Source: an uncultured Phycisphaerales bacterium (GTDB lineage: Bacteria; Planctomycetota; Phycisphaerae; WQYP01). From it: a stretch of 6,474 nucleotides of DNA. The position numbers and the translations under genes were made by a program. The notes beneath the pieces are model-generated. The model was given only the letters and a program-made list of their open reading frames with translations, made no database searches and was not told the DNA's origin. This document shows, piece after piece, positions 1,873 to 6,474 of the stretch (position 1 is its first letter; each line of letters starts with the position of its first letter). Location of the stretch: contig CALCHA010000179.1 of assembly GCA_937901265.1 (NCBI GenBank), positions 1 to 6,474 on the forward strand, written 5' to 3'.

Positions 1873-3885
1873 TCACGCATGGATCAGCAGCGGGATGTCT
1901 TCCGGCAGGCCGTCGGCGACCTCGGTAAGGACATCGCCGCGCAGGGCACGGAGGACCGCCCCTTCGCGGCTGACGCCCATCAGCAGCGCCTGCACGTCGT
2001 AGGTCGCGGCGAAATCGAGAATCGTGTAAGCCACATCGCGGCTGACCGCATAGATCGGAATGATGTCGACACCCGCCGCCTTGGTCGCCTTGGCGGCGAG
2101 CTCAAATACGTGACGGGCCTCGGCGTCTTCGGCGAGGGTGGGGCCCTCCGCGCCCATGGAAAATTGCACGTTGAGCTGGCGGACAAACAGCACGAAGAGG
2201 ATGCCGTTGAGCTGCTTGGCGTAATTGGCCGAAAAATCGATCAGTCGCTGCCCGCCACGGGTGGCAACCATGACGTGGGGCTTGCTCATATCGAGGTCGC
2301 CCGCGGGGGTGCCGAGGGATTCGGCATCGACCTCGGTGACGGAGGGTTGGCGGTGTCCGCCCTTGGGCTGCATGATGACGTTGCCGCGGAAGGTCAAACC
2401 GCCGCTTTCGCGGGTCGCCGCCTCCAACTCCCCGAGGCGCCGGGCGCGTGCCGGCAGATAGGACCGGGTGAAGGCGCGGGCGCCGAGCCCGACGGCCAGG
2501 ATGATGCCCACAAAAATAAGGGCGTGGGGCTTCTCCACCGCAAGGGTCAACTCGATGGCGATCATGACCGCCGCGATCAGCCCGATGAAGGTGCGTTCGA
2601 TCGCGCGCACCGGCAATTTCCGGTTGATGGTGCAGCAGCTCAGGTTGATGGCGATGGCGCCCACCACGCCGATGGCGTAGAGATCCGCCAGCATTTCCAG
2701 CGTCGGAAACAGCAGCAGCAGCAGGCAGGGCACGCCCACCGCCGGAATCAGGCCCACCCATGGCACGCCGAAAAGGTTGAGGCGGCTGAAGACCGCGGGC
2801 AGCTCCCGGTCGCGCGCCATCACGTAACAGACGCTGAGCATCCCGCCCACCACCGTGTTGACGGCCGAGAGCAGCAGCATCCCGAAGACCACGCCGCAGA
2901 TGATGCCGAACCAGCGACCGACGAAGTAATCGCCCATCACGCGCAGGACCTTGTTCTTGATGTCCTGCTCGGCCTGAGAGGAATGGGGGGACTTTTCGGC
3001 GGCGAGTTCCACATAGGCGGTGTGCTGGGCGTCTGCCGTTTTCCAGTCGGGGTTGGCGTCCTTGAAGCGGTCAAGGACCTTGTCGTTTTCCTGAAAGTTG
3101 TTGGCGGGCTGGACGAATGCGGTCGCCGGCGCCGTGCCCCGGGCCTGCATCACCGCCGGCAGGGCCAGCATCGCCACCCCCAGCACCAGGTTGAAGATCA
3201 CGACTTCCAGCAGCACCGGCCAGATCGATTTTTTACTGGTGCGGCCGACCGGGGGGACCATGATGCCGGTCATGTTGGCGATGGCCTCGACACCCGAGAG
3301 GGCCAGCACGACGTTGACCAGGGTGATCCACTGGCCGGAAATGGGGCCGGAGGGCCGCTGGATGTGGTGCCAGCCGGTGGAGAGGTGCGGCACGGAGGCG
3401 ACGATGAGGACGAACATGAGCAGGAGCGTGGCCATGGCGACGACGAGGGCGAACTGCCCCGCGCGCTTGGGGCCGATGTAGTTGATCACGCCCAGGACGA
3501 GGATGGCGGTGATCGCCCAGATTTTGACCCATGTGTCACTGATGCCGAAGTAGTGCATGCCATCGAAGGAGGAGAGGGCGGCGGTGACGGCATAGTCGGC
3601 GAAGAGCAGCAGGGCGCCGATGACGGAAAGCAGCGGGGAAATCTGGCGGGCCGCGGAGTAGACGCCGCCGCCATCGGGATAGACGCGGCAGACGACGGTG
3701 TAGGCCCAGCCGACGGCGGCGACGAGGAGGCCGACACCGAGGATGTACCAGAAGGAGGCGTAGAGGGCGTAATAAAAGGCGAGACCGAGGACGTAGAAGC
3801 GGGAGGTGCCCCAGTCGCCGTAGAGCATGGGCCCGGCGTGATACCACTTGAGTTCGCGGGGGCGTTCCTGGTGGGAGACGAGCAT
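1873..3885 (-). CDS. KUP/KimA-like potassium transporter with C-terminal USP-like domain (left copy)
   Basis: This 670-residue APC-superfamily membrane protein probably imports K+ with H+. About twelve membrane segments can be drawn at roughly 21-41, 43-66, 84-106, 118-138, 144-165, 186-212, 221-245, 323-356, 376-393, 396-418, 431-451 and 453-470. TM1 carries GDWGTSRFY, close to the KUP signature GDIGTSPLY. Asp24, Tyr31, Thr101, Ser105, Ser197, Glu200 (in LSGVEA) and Tyr403 (in LYAIGVVGA) fall where I recall KimA K+-coordinating residues D36, Y43, T121, S125, T230, E233 and Y377; only T-to-S differs. YPDGGGVYSAA at 69-79 matches the YPxGGG(A/S)Y block. A charged loop of about 75 residues between TM7 and TM8 should be periplasmic. 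Residues about 536-670 form a cytoplasmic universal-stress-protein-like domain with a degenerate nucleotide motif. ATG 3885 is the only credible start: upstream in frame there is a TGA at 3940-3942 and no other ATG, GTG or TTG. There is no clear Shine-Dalgarno. A c-di-AMP riboswitch precedes it. Alternative: amino acid permease. Confidence 0.9.
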   Translation of the reverse strand: MLVSHQERPRELKWYHAGPMLYGDWGTSRFYVLGLAFYYALYASFWYILGVGLLVAAVGWAYTVVCRVYPDGGGVYSAARQISPLLSVIGALLLFADYAVTAALSSFDGMHYFGISDTWVKIWAITAILVLGVINYIGPKRAGQFALVVAMATLLLMFVLIVASVPHLSTGWHHIQRPSGPISGQWITLVNVVLALSGVEAIANMTGIMVPPVGRTSKKSIWPVLLEVVIFNLVLGVAMLALPAVMQARGTAPATAFVQPANNFQENDKVLDRFKDANPDWKTADAQHTAYVELAAEKSPHSSQAEQDIKNKVLRVMGDYFVGRWFGIICGVVFGMLLLSAVNTVVGGMLSVCYVMARDRELPAVFSRLNLFGVPWVGLIPAVGVPCLLLLLFPTLEMLADLYAIGVVGAIAINLSCCTINRKLPVRAIERTFIGLIAAVMIAIELTLAVEKPHALIFVGIILAVGLGARAFTRSYLPARARRLGELEAATRESGGLTFRGNVIMQPKGGHRQPSVTEVDAESLGTPAGDLDMSKPHVMVATRGGQRLIDFSANYAKQLNGILFVLFVRQLNVQFSMGAEGPTLAEDAEARHVFELAAKATKAAGVDIIPIYAVSRDVAYTILDFAATYDVQALLMGVSREGAVLRALRGDVLTEVADGLPEDIPLLIHA

Positions 3886-3895
3886 CAGGTGTTGG

Positions 3896-3937
3896 AAAAC
3901 GCGGGGCCGGCGCGGCGCAGGGCCGCGGGGGGCGCGT
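3896..3937 (-). terminator. terminator-like hairpin of the left riboswitch leader
   Basis: Read on the minus strand, ACGCG (3937-3933) pairs with CGCGU (3903-3899). Inside, CGCGGC (3927-3922) pairs with GCCGCG (3916-3911) around a CCUGC loop. UUUU follows at 3899-3896, ten bases before the ATG at 3885. This is the expected place and shape for an expression platform ending transcription when c-di-AMP is bound. The CCUGCG at 3921-3916 can also pair with the riboswitch's conserved CGCAGG (3962-3957), which would break the stem and act as an antiterminator. The U tract is short, so a translational effect is also possible. Confidence 0.55.
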
Positions 3938-3953
3938 TGTCACTCTCCAGCAA

Positions 3954-4085
3954 GAGCCTGCGAGGTAAGCTGACGGGCTTGGGTCGCTGAAACCCATCCA
4001 TCGGGGTGATGGATTAGCCCCTGGCGTCGAGACGCCTTTGGGTCCCCCGCTGCCGGGCGGCTGCCCGGCATTCGGCTGCAACAGC
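3954..4085 (-). promoter_or_regulatory. c-di-AMP (ydaO/yuaA) riboswitch, left copy
   Basis: The minus strand carries the conserved blocks of the ydaO class in order. These are GCCGAAUGCC near the 5' end (about 4076-4067), a perfect hairpin GCCGGGC-AGCC-GCCCGGC (4069-4052), GGGGGACCCA (4048-4039), a small hairpin GGCGU/ACGCC (4036-4023), and GGGGCUAAUCC (4021-4011). A helix AUCCAUC/GAUGGAU follows (4014-3996), then CCCGUCAGCUUACCUCG (3977-3961) and CAGGC. This class binds two c-di-AMP molecules and usually turns expression off, often for K+ or osmolyte transport and cell-wall genes. It sits 70-200 bases before the left transporter ATG. One departure from the right copy is GCUUACC where the usual form is GCUAACC. 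The precise outer pairing was not computed. Confidence 0.9.
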
Positions 4086-4098
4086 GTGTCGGAGGACG

Positions 4099-4126
4099 AT
4101 GATACCCCCCCTGCGGGGGGCGTCAA
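4099..4126 (-). promoter_or_regulatory. sigma70-type promoter with inverted-repeat spacer
   Basis: On the minus strand TTGACG (4126-4121) and TATCAT (4104-4099) are separated by exactly 16 bases. A start point near 4092 would begin the transcript just before the riboswitch (5' end about 4085), as expected. The 16-base spacer is six C, GCA and seven G, an almost perfect inverted repeat. It could be a protein-binding operator or alter spacer geometry. It indicates that the left transporter has its own promoter rather than depending on the right copy's transcript. Confidence 0.6.
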
Positions 4127-4139
4127 ATGGGGGGCGACG

Positions 4140-4153
4140 GCTCACGCATGAGC
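4140..4153 (-). terminator. small hairpin after the right transporter gene
   Basis: GCUCA-UGCG-UGAGC is a perfect five-pair stem with a four-base loop, starting 8 bases after the TAA at 4164-4162. There is no U tract, so intrinsic termination is doubtful; it may protect the mRNA 3' end or be chance. Eleven bases of it (CATGCGTGAGC) recur at the stop codon of the left transporter gene. Confidence 0.2.
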
Positions 4154-4161
4154 TCCGAACC

Positions 4162-6168
4162 TTATGCGTGGATCAGCAGAGAGATGTCTTCGGGCAAATC
4201 CGCCGCGACCGCTGCCAGCACATCGCCGCGGAGCGCCTTGAGCAGCTTGCCTTCGCGGCTGACGCCCATCAGCAGGGCATCGACGCTGTAGGTCGCCGCG
4301 TGATCCAGAATCGCATACGCCACATCCGCGCTGACGACATAGATCGGCACCATGGCCACGCCGGCGTTGCGGCAGGCCTCGGCGGCATTTTCGAAGACAC
4401 GCCGCGCTTCAGGATCCTCCTCGATCGACGGGTTTGGCGATTGGCCCATGCTGATCACGTTGATCTGCCGCACGAACATCACCAGCAGGACCGCATCGAA
4501 TCGCCGGGCGTAGCGGGCGGCGAAATCAAGCAGCTTCTGCCCGCCACGGGCCGCGACGAGGACCTTGGACTTGCTCATGTTGAGCTGCTCGGAGGGGGTG
4601 CCCAGCGCTGCGGGTTCGATCCCGGGTGCCAGGGCGGCCGGGGCGAGGGTCATGCCGCGGAACTGCACCGTGCCGGGGCCCACCGCCGCCAGCGCCCGCG
4701 CACGGGCGGGCAGAACCGTCTTGCTCACGTAACGCAGCCCCAGACCGATCACCAGCACGCTGCCGGCGAAGGTGAGGGCGGAGGGCTTTTCGATGCACAG
4801 CGTCAGCTCGATGGCCACCATGATCGCCGCGAGGAACCCCATGCCCAGGCGCTCGTGGATTTTCAGCGCCATCGCGCGGTTCGAACAGCAGCTTCCGAGG
4901 TTGATCGCGATGGCGCCGACCACGCCGATGGCGTAGAGACCCGCGAGCAGGTCGAGGTCGCCGGTGACCAGCAGGATGATCGTCGGCAGCGCGACCGCCG
5001 CCACCAGCGTGCGCCAGGGGACGCCGAAGGGATTGAGCTTCATCAGCCCCTTGGGCAGCTCGGTATCGCGCGCCATGACGTACTGGATCGAGACCATGTC
5101 GGCGACGGCGGTGTTGACGGCCGAGAGCAGCAGGAGGCCGAAAACGATGCCGCAGAGCGCTGCGAATGGCCCCCCGACGTATTCGCGGGCCATGACCCAC
5201 AGCACCCGGTTCTCCGCATCTTTTTGATCGGGAGTGAGGTCGATGCGGTCGTGCGCGGCGACCTCTTCGGCAGACTTTTTCCAGCCGGGATGCGCGGCTT
5301 CCCACGTCCGCACCTGTTCCTCCTGCTCCGCCAGCGTGATGCGGTTCCCCTGAGCGTCGGCGGCAAAATACTTCGCCGGCAGGGCGTTCATCGCCACCGC
5401 GAGGATCAGGTTGAAGATCACCACTTCCAGCAGCACCGGCCAGATGGATTTTAGCGCCGTCTTGTGCACCGGGGGCACCATGATGCCGGTCATGTTGGCG
5501 ATGGCCTCAACGCCGGAGAGGGCGAGCACGACGTTGACCAGGTTGTGCCACATGTGGCCGGTCGTGCCCTCGGGCCGGTGGATGGTCGCCCACCCCTGCG
5601 CGAGCGCGCTGACCGCGGCGTGGGGGATGAGGGTGGCACCGGCGAGGATCAGCGTCAGGAACAGGGTGCCGATGGCGACGATCAGGGCGAACGTGCCGGC
5701 TTTTTTGGGGCCGATGAAGTTGATCGCCCCGATCAGGAAGATGCCAAGGATGGCGGCGGCGCGGACGAAGGTTTCCGCGGCGTCGGCGCTGTGGGCCAGG
5801 CCCAGCGACATCACGAGTTCTTTGACCTGGAGGTAGTGCATGCCATCCATGGCGGAGAGCGCCGCGGTCACCAGGTAGTCGGCGAAAAGCAGCAACGCCC
5901 CCACCACGGCGAGCATGCGCGAAGTGTGCCGCGCCGCCGAGTAAACGCCCCCGCCATCCGGATAGCAGCGACAGATAATGGTGTAGGCCCAACCGACGGC
6001 GGCGACCAGGGCGCAGACGGCGGCGACGTACCAGAAGCTGGCGTGCTGCGAGTAATAGAGAGCGAGTCCCAGCACGTAGAAGCGGGAGGTGCCCCAGTCG
6101 CCATAGAGCATGGGCCCGGCGTGATACCAGCGAAGTTCGCGCGGACGTTCGGCGTGGGTGATGAGCAT
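4162..6168 (-). CDS. KUP/KimA-like potassium transporter with C-terminal USP-like domain (right copy)
   Basis: This 668-residue paralogue of the left transporter is collinear with it from end to end and probably has the same K+/H+ symport role in the cytoplasmic membrane. TM1 again has GDWGTSRFY (Asp24, Tyr31). TM3 has FADYLVTAALS (Thr101, Ser105), TM6 has LSGVEAIANM (Ser218, Glu221) and TM10 has LYAIGVVGA (Tyr412). All match the ion-site positions described for the left copy. Relative to the left copy it gains about 12 residues between TM3 and TM4 and about 8-9 between TM5 and TM6, and has a shorter linker before the USP-like domain (about 534-668). The TM7-TM8 periplasmic loop (about 264-333) is charged and much diverged. 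I start it at ATG 6168 because MLITHAERPREL aligns with MLVSHQERPREL. The longer frame from ATG 6285 adds 39 Arg-rich residues encoded by the leader hairpin. No clear Shine-Dalgarno is seen. Its own riboswitch lies upstream. Confidence 0.9.
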   Translation of the reverse strand: MLITHAERPRELRWYHAGPMLYGDWGTSRFYVLGLALYYSQHASFWYVAAVCALVAAVGWAYTIICRCYPDGGGVYSAARHTSRMLAVVGALLLFADYLVTAALSAMDGMHYLQVKELVMSLGLAHSADAAETFVRAAAILGIFLIGAINFIGPKKAGTFALIVAIGTLFLTLILAGATLIPHAAVSALAQGWATIHRPEGTTGHMWHNLVNVVLALSGVEAIANMTGIMVPPVHKTALKSIWPVLLEVVIFNLILAVAMNALPAKYFAADAQGNRITLAEQEEQVRTWEAAHPGWKKSAEEVAAHDRIDLTPDQKDAENRVLWVMAREYVGGPFAALCGIVFGLLLLSAVNTAVADMVSIQYVMARDTELPKGLMKLNPFGVPWRTLVAAVALPTIILLVTGDLDLLAGLYAIGVVGAIAINLGSCCSNRAMALKIHERLGMGFLAAIMVAIELTLCIEKPSALTFAGSVLVIGLGLRYVSKTVLPARARALAAVGPGTVQFRGMTLAPAALAPGIEPAALGTPSEQLNMSKSKVLVAARGGQKLLDFAARYARRFDAVLLVMFVRQINVISMGQSPNPSIEEDPEARRVFENAAEACRNAGVAMVPIYVVSADVAYAILDHAATYSVDALLMGVSREGKLLKALRGDVLAAVAADLPEDISLLIHA

Positions 6169-6192
6169 GACCTGCAGAAAGCGCGTACCCCG

Positions 6193-6267
6193 CCCTCCCG
6201 CGCCGATGCAAAACGCGACGCGCGCAGCCACCGGGGGCTGTGGGCGCGTGGTTTTTGCATGGGAGGG
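6193..6267 (-). terminator. long leader hairpin, likely expression platform of the right riboswitch
   Basis: Between riboswitch and ATG the minus strand folds on itself in several nested steps. CCCUCCC (6267-6261) pairs with GGGAGGG (6199-6193). AUGCAAAA (6260-6253) pairs with UUUUGCAU (6213-6206). ACGCGC (6249-6244) pairs with GCGCGU (6223-6218). AGCC (6239-6236) pairs with GGCU (6229-6226). The U-run after a GC stem, with an A-run before it, resembles an intrinsic terminator. The outer arm brings purine-rich GGGAGGG, about 25 bases before the ATG, into the structure. The platform could stop transcription or block ribosome entry. Folding energies were not computed. Confidence 0.5.
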
Positions 6268-6289
6268 GAAGCGGTGAGCTTTCACTCCA

Positions 6290-6464
6290 GCGTTCGCCTG
6301 CGAGGTTAGCTGACGGGCTCGGAAGCGCTGTTCTCCGTCCGGAACGGCCGTCCCGGATTAGCCCCTGCTTGGCAGCCAAAAAGGCCGCCGCGCGATACCT
6401 GCCGCAACTCGCAACAGGTTGGGTTCCCCGCTGCCGGCATTGCGACCGGCATTCGGCAACTCAG
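6290..6464 (-). promoter_or_regulatory. c-di-AMP (ydaO/yuaA) riboswitch, right copy
   Basis: The minus strand shows, in order: UUGCCGAAUGCCGG (about 6459-6446), a GCCGG/CCGGC helix closing at 6437-6433, GGGGAACCCA (6429-6420), and GGGGCUAAUCC (6365-6355). A GGGAC/GUUCC helix follows, then CCCGUCAGCUAACCUCG (6317-6301) and CAGGC. The outer stem UUGCC with GGCGA is visible. These are the diagnostic blocks of the c-di-AMP class. It has a larger peripheral region than the left copy, including GGCGGCC-UUUUU-GGCUGCC (6389-6371). The leader to the ATG at 6168 is about 122 bases. Its promoter must lie mostly beyond the window edge; only a possible TGTATT at about 6472-6467 is in view. Confidence 0.9.
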
Positions 6465-6474
6465 CGAATACAGA

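Follow-up and report, generated by a model that had tools for sequence, protein, structure and literature searches.

The window analysed here, the whole of contig CALCHA010000179.1 (6,474 bases) from an uncultured Phycisphaerales bacterium (assembly GCA_937901265.1; 3.4 Mb, 707 contigs, 82% complete), carries two transporter genes in tandem on the minus strand, each with its own leader of the cyclic di-AMP (c-di-AMP) riboswitch class in front. Judged from sequence, these genes probably encode KimA/Kup-like, likely proton-coupled potassium importers that would be switched off when c-di-AMP rises. That the proteins import potassium, as proposed in a first-pass annotation of this DNA, was supported by profile comparison, predicted structure, the residues of the potassium site and a survey of the riboswitch throughout the host's class. 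The named relatives of both proteins are Phycisphaerae (Planctomycetota).

Transporter genes and their riboswitch leaders

The features of the two units, all on the minus strand, are as follows (TM1, first transmembrane helix; USP, universal stress protein).

1873..3885, minus: transporter gene 1 (670 amino acids; ATG at 3885; open reading frame list, Pfam and profile search)
1912..2274, minus: USP domain of protein 1 (PF00582, E 5.1e-8; USP fold by model)
3793..3819, minus: TM1 motif GDWGTSRFY of protein 1 (residues 23-31, including D24 and Y31; alignment and encoded sequence)
3886..3939, minus: GC-rich hairpin of gene 1 between aptamer and start codon, a possible expression platform (fold prediction)
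3940..4087, minus: c-di-AMP (ydaO/yuaA) riboswitch aptamer of gene 1 (RF00379, 67.3 bits, E 2e-14)
4099..4126, minus: promoter-like TTGACG-16-TATCAT of gene 1 (10/12 consensus bases; consensus match only)
4162..6168, minus: transporter gene 2 (ATG at 6168 by homology; reading frame open from GTG 6285)
4198..4563, minus: USP domain of protein 2 (PF00582, E 1.8e-11)
6076..6102, minus: TM1 motif GDWGTSRFY of protein 2 (residues 23-31 from ATG 6168; its D24 aligns with KimA D36 and Kup D23)
6280..6468, minus: c-di-AMP (ydaO/yuaA) riboswitch aptamer of gene 2 (RF00379, 61.9 bits, E 6.1e-13)

The open reading frames, the RF00379 matches and matches to PF13520 confirmed the earlier description of two collinear APC-type proteins, each behind a ydaO-class leader and with GDWGTSRFY in TM1. 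Gene 2 was listed from the GTG (6285-4162, minus strand, 707 amino acids), and homology begins at ATG 6168. The two proteins are 54% identical, and TM1 of both carries LYGDWGTSRFY.

Both leaders matched the covariance model over its full length (positions 1-134) and above its gathering score of 38 bits, and they were the only RF00379 matches in the host assembly. The double c-di-AMP control proposed earlier holds in the form of one riboswitch per gene. The stretches GCCGAAU and GUCAGCU(A/U)ACCUCGCAGGC were kept in both leaders, and both showed GGGGCUAAU, one base off the consensus GGGGUGAAU. Because the same type of base difference also occurs before TrkH, KdpA and Band_7 genes (by a simple pattern that leaves many leaders unreadable), we claim no family-specific change of ligand. 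The promoter-like site lies directly 5′ of leader 1 (mean of 0.0 in 50 shuffles), so gene 1 may be a separate transcription unit; leader 2 begins 6 bases from the contig end, and its promoter therefore lies outside the window. GC-rich hairpins were predicted by folding ahead of both start codons. A Mir-598 match at 4993-4903 (25.1 bits, cut-off 69) was dismissed as chance.

Relation to KimA, Kup and amino acid permeases

As had been foreseen, both proteins would be labelled amino acid permeases, matching PF13520 (Pfam name AA_permease_2) at E 4.5e-17 and 3.3e-14 for proteins 1 and 2, respectively. This label is uninformative, because a KimA-type protein of the host's class carries it too (L115, 79.3 bits), and KimA-like proteins of Streptomyces are typed as amino acid/polyamine transporters in the available text of PMC10117811. 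A profile of 42 relatives compared with the PDB had KimA as its sole match at E up to 1 (E 4.3e-9), with no solved amino acid transporter reaching E 1, and KimA was also the best structural match of the predicted model. Neither protein matched K_trans (PF02705) at E up to 1, and membership in the Pfam KUP family was accordingly rejected; an NCBIfam scan returned nothing meaningful.

In a tree of 76 rows, the transporter family (49 rows) formed one clade (97/98) beside a clade of its own for the 14 KimA rows (99/100); KUP was a clean clade, and the amino acid set was not clearly one. Placement inside the KimA clade was therefore rejected, and the proteins fell outside the amino acid permeases used. 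Of the earlier description as KUP/KimA-like, the link to KimA and KUP stood, while a Pfam KUP match and a place within the KimA clade did not. On sequence grounds, the proteins are best called a USP-tailed, KimA/Kup-like group of their own, a third group besides KUP and KimA. Proteins 1 and 2 belong to different branches of this family. Among 120 listed relatives, 13 contigs (the window's included) carried two or three family proteins each, contigs being taken as the same where their sizes were equal (for example, 6433, 8192, 8869, 9644 and 11957 bases), a hint that copies often lie next to one another.

According to the available text of PMC6994465, B. subtilis KimA binds K+ through D36, T121 and Y377, with Y43 probably forming the outer gate, E233 serving as proton site and D117 probably acting as a sensor; D23, E116 and E229 of Kup are the equivalents of D36, D117 and E233, and KimA lacks the VFGD/IYGD motif. 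Residues were read from an automatic end-to-end profile alignment, with a local alignment as a repeat that spanned residues 2-413 against KimA, 21-202 against Kup and 43 to 385 against the amino acid set (five E. coli permeases). The D36, Y43 and Y377 columns of the amino acid set and the Kup Y367 column come from the end-to-end alignment only; the local alignment reproduced all 11 KimA pairs and 8 Kup pairs. D24, T101, Y403, Y31, E200 and D97 of protein 1 stood at KimA D36, T121, Y377, Y43, E233 and D117. Invariant in the 120 listed relatives were D24, Y31, T101, S105, S197, E200, N204, T344 and Y403, and the equivalents of KimA D36, Y43, T121, S125, E233 and Y377 were kept in 120/120; the D97 column held D in 110 and N in 10, and the Y98 column Y in 117 and F in 3. 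By comparison, six KimA-type references had D36, Y43 and E233 fixed (6/6) and T121 and Y377 in 4/6. All 19 riboswitch-linked members besides protein 1 (seven of them, with protein 2, belong to the host's family; some also count among the 120) kept the equivalents of D36, Y43, T121, S125, E233, N237, T317 and Y377, and 18 of them that of D117.

The likening of GDWGTSRFY to the KUP TM1 motif also proved sound: YGDxGTSxxY is common to these proteins and Kup, and D24 aligns with Kup D23. Y-G-D occurred in TM1 of 120/120 listed relatives, with FGD or YGD in divergent members. Kup D23, Y30, T120, S127, T226 and E229 shared columns with the transporter family in 5/5 Kup proteins, and at the D23, E116 and E229 columns the listed relatives had D (120/120), D (110/120) and E (120/120), respectively. 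Because KimA lacks VFGD/IYGD, yet is the best match elsewhere, the TM1 motif ties the proteins to Kup and the rest ties them to KimA. The five E. coli amino acid permeases had no Asp in TM1 (GadC has Glu), N, G, G, L and N at the D117 column and S, T, L, A and V at the Y377 column. The glutamate of the sixth transmembrane helix (TM6) is not diagnostic, because four of these five permeases share it.

A C-terminal USP domain, a kind of cytoplasmic domain that the first reading named for KimA, was found as a PF00582 match in both proteins. Whole-model alignment to KimA extended to residue 670, and the C-terminal domain alone ranked USPs first. In place of the ATP-binding USP motif G-X2-G-X9-G(S/T), as given in the available text of PMC4686210, we found G637-X2-R640-X9-G650-D651, and in place of the c-di-AMP motif of the KdpD USP, (A/G/C)XSXSX2N(Y/F) (PMC8214093), the β1-α1 loop has ATRGG or AARGG. 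The c-di-AMP residue of KimA, R337, is not conserved in the window proteins; position 364, aligned to KimA, is alanine in protein 1, and no residue holds a majority there among the 42 relatives. The USP tail likely tunes the transporter via a nucleotide or other ligand. A bolder proposal, which we put forward as tentative and rather doubtful, is that the proteins make up a third KUP-superfamily branch combining a Kup TM1 motif, a KimA-like body and a USP sensor tail, with c-di-AMP acting at two levels, the leader RNA and, through an unrecognised motif (T-x-G loop, invariant R569 and G637-x-S-R/K), the USP domain. If this were true, a cell with paired paralogues, one switch each, would regulate potassium uptake around two set points.

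Riboswitch and transporter distribution in the host's class

RF00379 occurred in 66 of 298 class genomes, with 86 places listed; 81 were analysed after two near contig ends (G155 and G145:C520) and three below the family cut-off were left out. The next gene was defined as the best match, at >=40 bits, among same-strand open reading frames starting within 900 bases. By this definition the window transporter family followed at 20 sites, making it the largest single group and including every one of the host family's 8 sites, and known potassium importer families followed at 37 of the 81 (TrkH 16, KimA 14, KdpA 6, KUP 1). The remainder were Band_7/SPFH proteins (6), another KimA-like APC group (2) and unassigned sites (16); the amino acid permease set was the best match at 0/81. 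A Pfam scan of 20 proteins gave TrkH at 7/7 TrkH sites scanned, K_trans at the KUP site and Band_7 in 3/3, with amino acid permease or no match for KimA-type and window-family proteins. We conclude that in the host's class the regulon of this riboswitch class is mainly one of potassium import, comprising four potassium importer types and the window family, and that the RNA ahead of mislabelled "amino acid permeases" can be used to read what they do.

Within the host's family, TrkH and K_trans were each found in 0/28 genomes, and a query with the class's KimA gave 13 weak matches (<=27.6 bits), all within window-family genes. KdpA was present in 25/28, in the host as a fragment at a contig edge. 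Because TrkH and K_trans were not found and the KimA matches fall in its own genes, the window family is, apart from the Kdp pump, the sole potassium importer candidate among the types searched in the 28 genomes. DAC, the c-di-AMP synthase domain, was found in 24/28 of these genomes and in 17/17 well-assembled ones.

The survey also turned up other arrangements. Two sites (L132:479-2821 and L138:3-2384) precede the second APC group, proteins of 781 and 794 amino acids with CDLGSTAYY in TM1 of L132, which scored 94.7 with KimA, 83.6 with the window family, 20.7 with amino acid permeases and 21.5 with KUP and are likely another type of potassium importer. Large Band_7/SPFH (flotillin-like) proteins lie behind L099, L102, L103, L121, L127 and L134 (by Pfam for three). 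Nine of the 16 unassigned sites (L114, L116, L120, L122, L123, L124, L133, L136 and L139), whose aptamers carry GTCAGCTAACTCCG, precede a conserved protein of ~75 amino acids (LRKAIENLIDAKL...GGLDRLLAHR...DIRNAERRL); the one member tested had no Pfam or NCBIfam match, and this is probably a small protein not described before, placed behind a riboswitch of the c-di-AMP class. At another unassigned site, L080:1-1404 (minus strand), the riboswitch stands ahead of a HAMP-PAS histidine kinase. In one genome (G116:C163:4368-4846), two RF00379 matches lie back to back on opposite strands with ~100 bases between them.

The rest of the window holds the following genes. The UPF0175 protein, directly downstream of transporter 1, overlaps the DUF3368 PIN-like protein, and this pair looks like a toxin-antitoxin pair.

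80-427, plus: ybaB (Pfam scan)
430-1086, plus: recR (Pfam scan)
1095-1634, minus: DUF3368 PIN-like protein
1559-1876, minus: UPF0175 protein

Mechanism, alternatives and known systems

We infer K+/H+ symport, c-di-AMP binding, off-switching and control through the USP domain as parts of one mechanism. A rise in c-di-AMP, which presumably reports high potassium, would make each leader turn off expression of its gene. On the model of B. subtilis KimA, the transporter, with its predicted LeuT-type fold, would hold K+ at D24, T101 and Y403 behind Y31 as the outer gate, and K+ would enter with a proton taken up at E200.

Several results weigh against the reading of these genes as potassium importers under c-di-AMP control. 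The genes could instead encode permeases for amino acids or polyamines, placed under c-di-AMP control for osmotic reasons; the Pfam name points that way, and elsewhere ydaO riboswitches precede amino acid transporters too (PMC10117811, available text). At profile level the amino acid set scored above the class's KimA set of 8 sequences (83.1 versus 75.2), a second set of the transporter family gave the same order (103.1 versus 98.0), and the amino acid set likewise outscored the KUP set. Amino acid transporters superposed on the membrane part with a lower root mean square deviation than whole KimA; a single-sequence phmmer search of the PDB (E up to 10) returned no KimA, just a meaningless methyltransferase subunit at E 0.12; and long branches meet in the tree, where the order of the groups is open. 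Set against this, the Pfam label says little, the 42-relative profile drew no solved amino acid transporter at E up to 1, the five E. coli permeases lack Asp both in TM1 and at the D117 column, and the same five proteins were the best match at none of the class sites. We consider this explanation improbable. An equally small chance attaches to K+ or another cation being moved by a different scheme, such as cation-chloride cotransport or ammonium uptake: the profile found no sequence match to such transporters in the PDB, and KimA came first both there and in the structural comparisons.

A slightly more probable alternative, though still an unlikely one, is that the proteins import potassium behind leaders that either activate expression or have lost their response to c-di-AMP. 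Of the 28 genomes of the host's family, 25 have the gene and 6 the riboswitch; for the 19 gene-bearing genomes without it, 17 loci were re-scanned and still showed none, 7 of them also at a relaxed threshold. Across the class, the gene was found in 63 of 298 genomes (E up to 1e-40), many of them without a riboswitch match. Neither DAC nor TrkH was found in the host assembly at its 82% completeness, so that evidence for c-di-AMP production comes from the relatives alone, and a terminator search made no call in leader 1 and two overlapping weak calls in leader 2 (0.3 expected). Both leaders are nevertheless full-length with their conserved stretches intact, and DAC is present in every well-assembled relative. 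Overall, potassium import with c-di-AMP as an off-signal is the reading we favor.

Control of potassium by c-di-AMP has been described mostly in Gram-positive bacteria; if the leaders bind c-di-AMP, this control would extend to Planctomycetota. In the available portions of the open-access literature, we found nothing on c-di-AMP riboswitches in Planctomycetes, the co-mention of ydaO with Planctomycetes being unrelated, and in the available text of PMC4686210 Planctomycetes appear just in a list of phyla with KdpD. The KdpD USP bound to c-di-AMP (PDB 7JI4) differs from the window proteins, which lack its motif. APC amino acid permeases such as BasC, ApcT and AdiC share the LeuT-type fold, PF13520 and the TM6 glutamate, whereas the five E. 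coli permeases, besides the missing aspartates, are 430-511 amino acids long, too short for a USP tail. E. coli Kup (KUP-HAK-KT, PF02705) shares the TM1 motif and the D23, E116 and E229 columns; in contrast, the window proteins have no K_trans match, and the KUP profile score is weaker than those of KimA and the amino acid set.

The closest known system is KimA (B. subtilis YdaO; PDB 6S3K, 8B70 and 8B71). A riboswitch of the ydaO class, which bears this gene's name in Rfam, precedes kimA itself, and both the expression and the activity of KimA are reportedly controlled by c-di-AMP. For activity, such control is stated in the available text of PMC10284832. KimA is the best profile and structure match and has the same 12-helix membrane domain with a long last helix, a soluble C-terminal domain and the aligned potassium-site and proton-site residues (its T230 is a serine in the window proteins). 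However, identity is only ~20%, and the window proteins keep the Kup-type YGD, have a tail that is USP by Pfam and by fold, and form a separate clade. Because TM1 of the transporter family aligns with both KimA and Kup in local profile alignments, while KimA and Kup do not align with each other there, this family may bridge the two.

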